Below are positions 50,265 to 55,083 of a DNA stretch of 64,000 bases, one piece after another. The position numbers were made by a program, and so were the translations under genes. The DNA lies in NCBI RefSeq assembly GCF_028021195.1, contig NZ_CP115668.1, forward strand, positions 868,001 through 932,000. The letters run 5' to 3'. The DNA comes from Cutibacterium equinum. Its GTDB lineage: Bacteria; Actinomycetota; Actinomycetes; Propionibacteriales; Propionibacteriaceae. How positions within the stretch are numbered: the first letter of the stretch is position 1; every line of letters starts with the position of its first letter. The notes under the pieces were generated by a model. It worked only from the letters and a program-made list of their open reading frames with translations. It made no database searches and was not told the origin of the DNA.

Positions 50265-51071
50265 TCAGGTGGTGGGGGTGACCTCGTTGGGGATGGCCCC
50301 ACCGAACCTGCGGTCCCGCTTCGCGTACTCCACGACAGCATCCCACAGGTCTCGACGGTCCACGTCGGGCCACAGCACGTCGGAGAACACCATCTCGGCG
50401 TAGGCCGACTGCCACAGCAGGAAGTTCGAGGTCCGCTGCTCTCCGGAGGAGCGCCAGAACAGGTCGACGTCGGGAATCTCCGGCTCGTCGAGGTGGGTGC
50501 GGAAGGTCTTCTCGGTGATGTGATCCGGGTCGATCTTTCCCTCGGCCGCCAGCCTTGCAACGTCACGCACCGCGTCGACGATCTCAGCGCGACCGCCGTA
50601 ATTCACGCAGAACTGCAGGGTGAGCACGGTGTTGTCGGCTGACTGCTGCTCAGCCGACTCCAGCTCCTTGAGGACCGACTTCCACAACTTGGGACGACGG
50701 CCGGCCCATCGGATACGCACTCCCATGGCGTCAAGCTGGTCGCGGCGGCGATGGATGACGTCACGGTTGAACCCCATCAACCAACGCACCTCGTCGGGGG
50801 AGCGCTTCCAGTTCTCGGTGGAGAAGGCGTAGGCGCTCAGGTAGGGGATGCCCATCTCGATGGCTCCCTCGATGACGTCAAAGAGGGCATCCTCGCCACG
50901 GGCATGCCCCTCGGTGCGTTTGAGACCGCGCTGCTTGGCCCACCGACCGTTGCCGTCCATGACGATGGCGACATGCTGGGGGATGAGGTCGGGCGGCAGT
51001 TCCGGAGGACGAGCTCCGGACGGATGCGGCAGGGGGCCGCGCTTCGGGGGTCGCGGTGTGGTGTGGGCCAT
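50265..51071 (-). CDS. uppS: Isoprenyl transferase (undecaprenyl/polyprenyl diphosphate synthase family)
   Basis: This cis-prenyltransferase makes the lipid carrier for cell-wall synthesis. [14 protein letters not shown] holds the catalytic Asp and the structural G loop. [10 protein letters not shown], the RxxR region IRWAGRR and [18 protein letters not shown] are all family hallmarks. 268 residues. Chain length (C50 or C55) cannot be read. TACGCT lies 7 nt before the ATG, suggesting leaderless transcription. Confidence 0.93.
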
Positions 51072-52680: not shown

Positions 52681-53856
52681 TCAGTTTTCGCGAACGGGTT
52701 TGGCTCGCGGGATTCGTGCATCGACGACCCACCAGCCGTTGTGTAGGCCAATGGAGATTTCTCCGCGCAGCAAGGAGACGCGTTCTTTGAGTCGCGCAAT
52801 ACCCATTCCGGTGGAACGGACGGGTTCAATGTCAGAGTCAGTGACGGGGTTGGACACGGTGACGACGACATCATCGCCGTCGTCACGGACAATGATCTTT
52901 ACGGTGGCCGGGCCATTGTGTTTGATGGCGTTTGCCGTCGACTCGTCGAGGATTCGGTTGACGGCGTCGGAAACGCTCACGGGCATCGGTTCGCATTCAA
53001 CCGACGACTCGACTTTCCATCCCAAGGTTTCCAGCCGTGTCACCATCGCTGCCACGGTGGCCTCGACGGAGTCCTCGTGGGTCGGGGAGGACACCAGCGG
53101 AAGATTCTGGTTGCGCAGCACCAGGAGGAGACGCTGAAGGTCGTCGAGGGCTGTCCGCGAGGTCGTCTCGATGGATTTCGACGCATCGATGACGCTCTCA
53201 TCGGCCGTGTTGAGACGCAGGGAACCTGCCAGCATCGTGATGACGGTGAGGTCCTTGGCCACGACGTCGTGGAGTTCGGCTGCCAACTGTTGGCGCTCTT
53301 CCTCTCGGGCGTGGGCTGCCTGTTCAAGGGCGTCGGCTGCCTGCTCCTCAGCTTGCTCCCGACGACCGTCGAGCCAGCGAAAGGCGGACCCCAAGGCGGC
53401 TCCAATGCTAGCAGCGGCGATGGCGACGAATAAGGCGGAGGTCCATTGCGCCGTGTGTGAATGGAAAACTGACCGCAGTGTTATGACGACGACGCCGAGG
53501 ACAATGGGCGTCCAGTGGCGTTTCAGGCCATGTTGGCCTGCCACGAATGCCAGCAAGCCGAGAATGGGTGGGCCGAGAGGAGCCTTCCCGACGACGACAC
53601 AACCGAGGAGTGCAATGAGAAGTAAGAGTTCCTGTACCTGGGGCCATTTGGAGCACAGTAAAGCGATGATGCTGAGAACATAGACCCCCACAGCCACTGC
53701 AAGTGTGCCCGGGTGATCGCCGGCCTGGATAAAAAGTCGCAGGTCGTCGATCCCGGACAGCACAAGAAAGGTGATGGCAACTGCAGCCACGCTGATATTT
53801 CGGCTGAGGTGACCTTCGCTGCTATGGGGATGTCGTGTCGTTGAACCGGTGGTCAT
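52681..53856 (-). CDS. Sensor histidine kinase next to a secreted peptide gene
   Basis: Residues ~20-160 hold five or six membrane helices (ISVAAVAITFLVLSGI, TLAVAVGVYVLSIIALL, VQELLLLIALLGCVVVG and others) with only short loops, so any ligand must be sensed by the membrane domain. The coiled coil EEQAADALEQAAHAREEERQ leads to the DHp box QLAAELHDVVAKDLTVITML. The HATPase is short: DESTANAIKHNGPATVKI and GMGIARLKERVSLLRGE. 391 residues. The peptide gene lies 36 bp upstream on the same strand, and the likely partner regulator is divergent. The kinase architecture is HisKA_3, not AgrC. Confidence 0.88.
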   Translation of the reverse strand: MTTGSTTRHPHSSEGHLSRNISVAAVAITFLVLSGIDDLRLFIQAGDHPGTLAVAVGVYVLSIIALLCSKWPQVQELLLLIALLGCVVVGKAPLGPPILGLLAFVAGQHGLKRHWTPIVLGVVVITLRSVFHSHTAQWTSALFVAIAAASIGAALGSAFRWLDGRREQAEEQAADALEQAAHAREEERQQLAAELHDVVAKDLTVITMLAGSLRLNTADESVIDASKSIETTSRTALDDLQRLLLVLRNQNLPLVSSPTHEDSVEATVAAMVTRLETLGWKVESSVECEPMPVSVSDAVNRILDESTANAIKHNGPATVKIIVRDDGDDVVVTVSNPVTDSDIEPVRSTGMGIARLKERVSLLRGEISIGLHNGWWVVDARIPRAKPVREN

Positions 53857-53892
53857 ATGTGACGAATCCCCATGAATGAACGGGAAAATGAA

Positions 53893-54075
53893 TCAGTCGC
53901 ACCAACTGGGGTAGTAGTCGCAGAACGCGAACATGAGTCCCTGGGTCTGGGTGCCGGTCTGGGTGGAGACACGGTGCTGAAGGGAAGCGGATGTCGGAGC
54001 AGCCTGGGCGGGGGCGGCGATGGAGAAGGATGTGATGGTCAGGGCAGCCAAGGCGGCTGTGATGAGTTTCTTCAT
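53893..54075 (-). CDS. Small secreted two-cysteine peptide, candidate signalling pheromone
   Basis: The 60-residue product begins MKKLITAALAALTITSFS, a clear Sec signal peptide with an AQA cleavage site near residue 25. The mature part would be 35 residues, Ser/Thr/Gln-rich, ending GLMFAFCDYYPSWCD. Two cysteines six residues apart could close a small aromatic loop, as in secreted cyclic peptides. The start at 54075 begins the signal peptide; a longer frame to 54381 would bury it internally. GGAG lies 13 nt upstream. It sits between a kinase and a regulator gene. No known family is recognised, and its being a signal is inference. Confidence 0.7.
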   Translation of the reverse strand: MKKLITAALAALTITSFSIAAPAQAAPTSASLQHRVSTQTGTQTQGLMFAFCDYYPSWCD

Positions 54076-54411
54076 GGGAGAAGGGTATCTCCTCGCAGGG
54101 CCATCTCCAACGCTCTTCCAGCAAGGGAGGTCACCAAAAATGACGTCAGTGAGAGACCCCGCGTCGTGCCGGGTTTTCCCGACCGTATGGGCACGGCTGC
54201 TTCCACATTGTGGACGTTTGGCCATCGAGGGCGTGATTTTGGTAACGAGCTGCTCGTGAACTGTTCTCACGTGCGAGGATGGAGGTCCGCGAGGTGGTCC
54301 GGCTAGCTCGGGCTGATGGCGGTACATGGTTGAGCGCTGGAAGCTCTCACCCTTGTGGTCATTCCCCCGGCCAGGAGACAATGGCTTCCAGCTAAAGCAT
54401 AGGGAGGTGCG
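54076..54411. promoter_or_regulatory. Divergent control region between the peptide and response-regulator genes
   Basis: This 336-bp region must drive both directions. It holds a perfect 8-bp palindrome, TGACGTCA (54141-54148), 65 bp before the peptide start, and an inverted repeat, CGTGA-N7-TCACG (54255-54271). Either could be a response-regulator site. GGGAGGTG precedes the regulator ATG. No other gene is visible. Confidence 0.5.
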
Positions 54412-55083
54412 ATGTCAGTTCGACTCGTCGTCACTGACGATCATCCGATCATGAGGCAGGCCCTGGCTGGCTATTTCTCCCGCCTTGAGGACATGGAGGT
54501 TGTCGGTCAGGCCTCCAACGGCCGTGAAGCCGTCGAGCTCGTCGACGAGCTGGAGCCCGACGTTGTCCTCATGGATCTCAAGATGCCCGAGATGGACGGT
54601 CTGACGGCGACTCGCATGATCGTCTCACGTCATCCTTCGGTGCGCGTCGTCGCCTTGACGACCTTCGCTCGTCGAGACATCGTCGTCGAGGCCATCCTTG
54701 CCGGCGCGGCCGGATACCTCCTCAAGGAGTCCGAGCCAGAGGCCGTCATCGCCGGAGTACGCGCTGTCATGGCCGGTCAGGTGAGCGTCTCCCCGGAGAT
54801 TGCTCGAGGGGTGGTCGAGGCCTTCGCGGCGCAGTCCAAGGACAATGAGACACGCCAGGTTGACTTGGCCCCGGTGGAACTGTCCGAGTCCGACAGTGCT
54901 GTGCTCAAGCTGCTTGCCGAGGGATTGTCCAACGCTGCCATCGCCGAAGAACTGTGCCTCAGCGAGTCCGCCGTCAAACAGCGCATTGGTCACCTGGCGA
55001 AGAAGTTGGGTGTGCGCAGCCGACTCGAGGTGCTGGTGCGAGCCTGCGAGCTGGGGCTGGCAACCCCTCGGCTGCGTCGCTGA
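54412..55083 (+). CDS. LuxR/NarL-family response regulator, likely partner of the divergent kinase
   Basis: The receiver domain has VVTDDHPIM, the phospho-acceptor VVLMDLKMPEMDG and TTFARRDIVVEAILAGA. The LuxR-type HTH is LLAEGLSNAAIAEELCLSES followed by AVKQRIGHLAKKLGV. 223 residues. It starts 336 bp from the divergent peptide-kinase unit and abuts the fur-family gene tail to tail, without a gap. Confidence 0.92.
   Translation: MSVRLVVTDDHPIMRQALAGYFSRLEDMEVVGQASNGREAVELVDELEPDVVLMDLKMPEMDGLTATRMIVSRHPSVRVVALTTFARRDIVVEAILAGAAGYLLKESEPEAVIAGVRAVMAGQVSVSPEIARGVVEAFAAQSKDNETRQVDLAPVELSESDSAVLKLLAEGLSNAAIAEELCLSESAVKQRIGHLAKKLGVRSRLEVLVRACELGLATPRLRR

Follow-up and report, generated by a model that had tools for sequence, protein, structure and literature searches.

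Organization of the locus

The window considered here, that is, the whole stretch of 64,000 nucleotides that was analyzed from Cutibacterium equinum (contig NZ_CP115668.1, positions 868,001 to 932,000), carries three adjacent genes that encode a peptide precursor, a sensor histidine kinase and a response regulator. The peptide gene (53893-54075, minus strand; 60 amino acids) lies upstream of the kinase gene (52681-53856, minus strand; 391 amino acids), with a gap of 36 bp between them (53857-53892), and the regulator gene (54412-55083, plus strand; 223 amino acids) is divergent from the peptide gene. The 336 bp that separate these two genes (54076-54411, no strand assigned) constitute a divergent promoter region that evolves fast, according to both the alignment and the sliding identity. 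The three genes are orthologues of C. acnes pqsB, pqsA and pqsC, respectively. A preliminary description of this DNA had placed a 60-residue precursor with a Sec signal and a Cys-x6-Cys pair 36 bp upstream of a kinase, had noted a LuxR-type regulator in divergent orientation, and had assigned to the kinase a HisKA_3 domain and almost no extracytoplasmic domain; all of these elements were recovered, with the genes at the same coordinates, the last one as far as a low-confidence structural model can indicate.

The peptide precursor

The precursor reads MKKLITAALAALTITSFSIAAPAQA before and APTSASLQHRVSTQTGTQTQGLMFAFCDYYPSWCD after the predicted cleavage site, which was located by eye from the AQA motif. 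Codons 1-25 (54001-54075, minus strand) would encode a Sec signal peptide, as suggested by the KK pair, the hydrophobic core and the AxA motif, and this segment is conserved in an alignment of seven species. In the mature part, a Cys-x2-Tyr-Pro-x-Trp-Cys loop (53899-53922, minus strand) extends from C52 to C59, a cysteine pair with x6 spacing. C52, Y55, P56, W58 and C59 are invariant across the seven peptides (motif C-x2-Y-P-x-W-C), the QPK linker is kept in six of them, and the two cysteines would be expected to form a disulfide.

Orthologues of the peptide are present at the same site in six other species (45-52% identity, E values of 1e-12 to 1e-16), and none of the seven frames, which have 60-69 codons, contains a stop or a frameshift. 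The mean pN/pS is 0.32 for the signal peptide and 0.48 for the mature part; the non-coding DNA that flanks it, in contrast, has diverged to approximately 40-60% identity between groups. Judging from the orthologues in place, the intact frames and these pN/pS values, the ORF is a real gene and goes beyond a chance ORF. No significant family match was obtained for the peptide in Pfam and NCBIfam, and its AlphaFold model is of low confidence (pLDDT 58). A terminator-like hairpin at the stop codon (53894-53908) was also considered and was set aside, as it is near the chance level.

The kinase and the regulator

In Pfam, the kinase matches HisKA_3 (E 1.3e-11) and, weakly, HATPase_c, and the regulator matches Response_reg and GerE, that is, a receiver and a LuxR-type domain. 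The H-box of the kinase (ELHD.VAKD) is intact in all seven species and its N-box reads N[AV]IKHN; the phosphoacceptor context of the regulator (LMDLKMPE) is likewise conserved. A low-confidence AlphaFold model of the kinase (mean pLDDT 65) contains six membrane-length helices connected by short loops, which correspond to a hypervariable membrane sensor domain (codons 18-165; 53362-53805, minus strand). The kinases of the six other species are 69-72% identical to the window copy. By sequence, the solved structures nearest to the kinase core are those of DesK, and LiaS is found among the distant NCBIfam matches of the kinase.

In C. acnes G003, the regulator gene (the pqsC orthologue) carries a frameshift in the linker between the receiver and the DNA-binding domain (L035:4522-5191), with the peptide and the kinase intact. 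It may be peculiar to this strain, reflect phase variation or result from an error in the assembly. A second two-component kinase of the same genome is split into two frames near residue 200 (L052, G003:C1:2154005-2154643), so the frameshift in the regulator may be no special event.

The promoter and the intergenic region

A putative promoter of the peptide gene (54082-54110, minus strand) consists of a -35-like TTGGAG (54105-54110), a 17 bp spacer and a -10 box, TACCCT (54082-54087), that ends 6 nt before the ATG. Each of the seven species has a TANNNT box 6-7 nt before the peptide ATG (at -12 or -13), and a TTG-box precedes it by 17 bp in the window and by 18 bp in C. avidum. The position of the predicted promoter would give a leaderless peptide mRNA in C. 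equinum. A leaderless transcription start site has been measured for pqsB of C. acnes (PMC3848588), and in C. acnes only; for the other species, the position of the box is known.

When the intergenic region was footprinted in search of a regulator-binding palindrome, two conserved blocks were found, neither of them convincing. A block at 54260-54290 that is conserved in the aligned species (CATCCTCGCA and close variants) stands inside the fast-evolving divergent region and is possibly the promoter of the regulator or its binding site. For C. acnes, PMC3848588 also mentions a second transcription start site upstream of pqsB and a possible antisense transcript across the 5′ end of this gene; the analogous position in the window is 54020-54110 (plus strand).

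Distribution of the three genes

Occurrence was compared among nine Cutibacterium species, with one genome per species. The trio is located between recO and fur in seven of them, namely C. equinum (the window), the species represented by genome G004, C. avidum, C. porci, C. modestum, C. acnes (G003) and C. namnetense; that is, six of the eight species other than C. equinum have the peptide orthologue, and the same six have the kinase and the regulator. The gene order recO, kinase, peptide, regulator, fur, glyS is the same in the C. equinum window and in C. acnes G003. The whole trio is missing from the remaining two species (G002 and G008), where fur is present. In G008, the end of recO and fur are separated by 46 bp, and thus the trio is either present or missing as a single block. 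The preliminary description had named, as an observation that would speak against its proposal, the loss or frameshift of the peptide in relatives that keep the kinase and the regulator; instead, the peptide frame is intact in 7/7 kinase-bearing species. Since the seven holders probably form one clade, this co-occurrence represents one history of gain or loss and not seven independent events.

Outside Cutibacterium, a profile search with the peptide in 199 Propionibacteriaceae genomes returned only signal-peptide-like noise. Profile searches with the kinase gave no match outside Cutibacterium in these 199 genomes of the family (E 1e-45) and none in 395 class-wide genomes (1e-40), and no relatives were found in the viral contigs and plasmids searched. 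A second peptide-kinase pair was sought at the other kinase loci of G000, with no convincing candidate. As for the species that lack the trio, G008 has a small protein of 104 residues, monooxygenase-like by eye, between fur and glyS (L111:4554-4868), and G002 has a similar ORF close to fur (L110:5541-5846).

Hypervariability of the sensor domain

The two halves of the kinase differ strongly in their conservation. Mean identity between species is approximately 50% for the membrane domain but 87% for the catalytic half and 89% for the regulator; for the peptide, it is 76% in the signal sequence and 55% in the mature part. As controls, recO and glyS are 93-98% and 93-96% identical to the window copy, respectively, and two membrane proteins, the flanking polytopic membrane protein and SdhC, are 80-88% and 88-91% identical to it. 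In a second HisKA_3 kinase from the same species, the membrane half is 66% and the catalytic half 86% identical; on the species set of this control, the kinase of the trio has values of 47% and 87%. The membrane half of the kinase is, consequently, an outlier even when compared with membrane controls.

A swapped genealogy in the sensor

In addition to being variable, the sensor has a genealogy of its own. Trees of the flanks, the regulator and the catalytic half separate, with high support, {window, G004, avidum} from {porci, modestum, acnes, namnetense}, whereas the tree of the membrane domain separates, with full support, {window, G004, modestum} from {avidum, porci, acnes, namnetense}. In AU tests, the membrane domain was incompatible with the species split (p = 0.0004), and the swapped split was rejected both for the catalytic half (p = 3e-7) and for the flanks (p = 5e-6), these p values being somewhat generous as the swapped split was chosen after inspection of the trees. 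Site patterns, which are model-free, point in the same direction. Pooled over quartets, some of which overlap, the sites favoring the species, swapped and third splits number 87/275/82 in the membrane part, as opposed to 318/51/35 in the catalytic half, 256/44/44 in the regulator and 220/34/15 in recO; in a single quartet, the counts are 11/40/13 for the membrane part and 58/9/5 for the catalytic half. The genealogy switches near codons 178-188 of the kinase, directly before the H-box, and the tract with the swapped genealogy, as delimited by the quartet site patterns and the AU tests with a breakpoint near codon 180, covers 53317-53805 (minus strand).

A long-branch artefact or pure convergence was considered as the source of this conflict. 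In the membrane part, the third positions of codons with identical amino acids show no species signal (13 species, 26 swapped and 12 third), which speaks against pure convergence, and a two-residue indel in the kinase is common to the swapped group. Leaving out C. modestum weakens the conflict considerably (AU p = 0.14), which indicates that it rests mainly on the C. modestum and C. avidum sequences together. The simplest reading would be recombination at the sensor domain or ancestral alleles that were kept there for a long time. The idea of a cassette, in which the promoter, the peptide and the sensor would have entered C. avidum together, was suggested by the sliding identity; the site patterns of the peptide and of the intergenic region do not support it, and our claim is, therefore, limited to the exchange of the sensor.

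Does the peptide follow the sensor?

The preliminary description had proposed examining whether the peptide co-varies with the membrane domain of the kinase, and weak support for this was obtained. Distances of the mature peptide and of the sensor are correlated (Mantel r = 0.59, p = 0.045, marginal with seven taxa), and the correlation persists after removing the catalytic-domain distance (0.58, p = 0.044). The site counts of the peptide ORF (19/14/24 for the species, swapped and third splits) favor no split, and the AU test of the swapped split gives p = 0.39 for the peptide, whose sequence is not long enough to demonstrate joint travel with the sensor. C. modestum has a sensor of the window group and a peptide that, overall, is like those of the C. 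acnes group. Two positions after the first Cys of the loop, one sensor group has Ile or Leu where the other has Tyr or Ala, a match that, among 35 mature positions, is only suggestive.

Relationship to known systems

Both primers reported in PMC3848588 match G003 with 0 mismatches, within the peptide and regulator genes, which identifies G003 as C. acnes and the trio as pqsB, pqsA and pqsC. In C. acnes KPA171202, these genes are pqsB-pqsA/pqsC (PPA0946-0945/PPA0947), as described in 2013 by Lin et al. (PMC3848588), who refer to a Leeds thesis of 2011. That article regards the locus as a two-component system with a likely role in quorum sensing, places pqsB in one transcription unit with the kinase, and documents transcription but not signalling. 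Thus, the circuit proposed by the preliminary description is in agreement with the anatomy of the locus and with the joint retention of its genes but is not new, as it was published in 2013 for C. acnes (PMC3848588). Polymorphism of the locus between species is not described in the consulted passages of PMC3848588, and no later study of the locus turned up in the literature collection that was searched; the pherotype-like evolution of the sensor appears to be the new part. The window shares with the C. acnes locus the orthologous trio, its order, orientation and synteny, and the position of the predicted promoter, and differs from it in the peptide (47% identical), the kinase (approximately 71%) and the group of sensor alleles.

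Regarding the Com system of Bacillus subtilis, the preliminary description had set the trio apart from ComX. ComA is a LuxR-type regulator, as is the GerE-containing regulator described here. ComP likewise belongs to the HisKA_3 kinases (PMC4008528), so that both the kinase and the regulator of the trio match the ComP-ComA kind; the contrast is overstated, and the difference is confined to the route of the peptide. ComP, too, is polytopic, with a variable N-terminal membrane domain and a conserved cytoplasmic kinase half, and ComX is made as a short precursor with a Trp near its C-terminus (PMC4008528). Unlike ComQXPA, the trio combines a Sec signal peptide with a Cys pair, its regulator gene is divergent, and it lacks ComQ: no ORF for such an isoprenyl transferase is found between recO and fur, and a nearby uppS-like gene (50265-51071) has a counterpart in G008, the genome devoid of the trio where recO and fur are 46 bp apart. 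The peptide has no Pfam match to the ComX family (PF05952).

Agr systems share with the trio a six-helix polytopic sensor, a small peptide, presumably cyclic in the trio as it is in Agr, and sensor polymorphism of the sort seen in specificity groups. In contrast to Agr, the trio has HisKA_3 and HATPase_c instead of an AgrC-type ATPase, GerE instead of LytTR, and predicted Sec export; AgrB (PF04647) was found in none of the nine Cutibacterium genomes. DesK-DesR has, by sequence, the closest solved kinase core and a small polytopic sensor, which in DesK responds to membrane fluidity, but no peptide gene. Since ComQ, the ComX family, AgrB, an AgrC-type ATPase and LytTR are all lacking, the trio, which would work like ComX-ComP-ComA and Agr, is a member of neither and belongs to the type of the C. 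acnes pqs locus.

A model for the circuit and its alternatives

We consider it reasonably probable that the trio is a peptide-pheromone two-component circuit, orthologous to C. acnes pqsBA-pqsC. In this model, the 60-residue precursor would be exported by Sec and cut by signal peptidase after AQA. The mature peptide would then probably be oxidized to an 8-residue Cys...Cys loop that displays the invariant Tyr-Pro-x-Trp, preceded by a tail of approximately 26 residues that may be trimmed further. Once outside the cell, the peptide would be recognized by the kinase through the helices of its six-helix membrane domain and the short loops between them, and the kinase would alter the phosphorylation state of the LuxR-type regulator. 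The regulator, in turn, would act on the intergenic region that it shares with the peptide gene, a case of autoregulation, and on further targets. A signal and its receptor need to fit only each other, which would explain why the peptide and the sensor drift fast as a block, and why species exchange sensor alleles, while the output half is conserved. A fast sensing half, together with exchange between species, is as expected for a private chemical language. Nevertheless, fast-evolving membrane sensor domains also occur outside pheromone receptors, a point against the circuit. The frameshifted regulator of G003 and the failure of the peptide ORF to follow the swapped genealogy likewise weigh against it.

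Other explanations have to be weighed against this model. The peptide could be an effector, antimicrobial or host-interacting, that is co-transcribed with a two-component system and controlled by it, the input of this system being some other cue in the membrane; the peptide would then be its output. Antimicrobial activity is frequent among small secreted peptides with a Cys loop. The single transcription unit with the kinase in C. acnes (PMC3848588) would suit this possibility as well; we regard it as unlikely, as the hypervariability and exchange affect the sensor domain of the kinase in addition to the peptide, which has no significant family match. Both functions might also be combined, as in nisin-type antimicrobials that induce their own synthesis, with a peptide that acts against competitors and, at the same time, serves as the input of its own kinase. 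The same gene order would serve, and rapid divergence of sensor and peptide also fits antagonistic coevolution, but the core of the C-terminal loop is invariant while linker residues vary, and of all the explanations we give this one the least credence. Among the ORFs between recO and fur, moreover, there is no immunity, transporter or dedicated export gene, which speaks against an effector and against a self-inducing antimicrobial alike.

Alternatively, the kinase could sense membrane stress or state in the manner of DesK or LiaS, in which case the peptide would assist or inhibit the kinase locally, no signal would pass between cells, and the sensor would evolve fast because of a loose constraint on its helices. 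The relationship to DesK and the distant LiaS match are in line with this idea, as is the faster membrane half of the control kinase (66%). However, relaxed constraint by itself does not generate a swapped genealogy bounded within one gene, and the three membrane controls are far more conserved, so this explanation seems quite improbable. Returning to the pheromone circuit, a more detailed version can be advanced tentatively, as a possibility that we would rate somewhat below even: a Sec-exported, disulfide-looped pheromone (C-x2-YP-x-WC) would act on a ComP/DesK-like kinase, the exchange of sensor domains would maintain at least two receptor specificity groups (pherotypes) among the species, and skin species that share a follicle may hear, ignore or jam each other.

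Implications for Cutibacterium

Little has been documented on quorum sensing by peptides in Actinobacteria, and a 2016 review lists Propionibacterium with AI-2 only (PMC4748050). If the circuit is real, the commonest skin genus would have a genetically encoded signal with specificity groups at the level of species, and C. acnes, C. avidum and C. modestum would have a possible route to influence each other. The swapped sensor predicts cross-talk of C. avidum with C. acnes, C. porci and C. namnetense, and none between C. modestum and C. acnes. The 35-residue peptide and its kinase would be defined targets if the circuit works as proposed.
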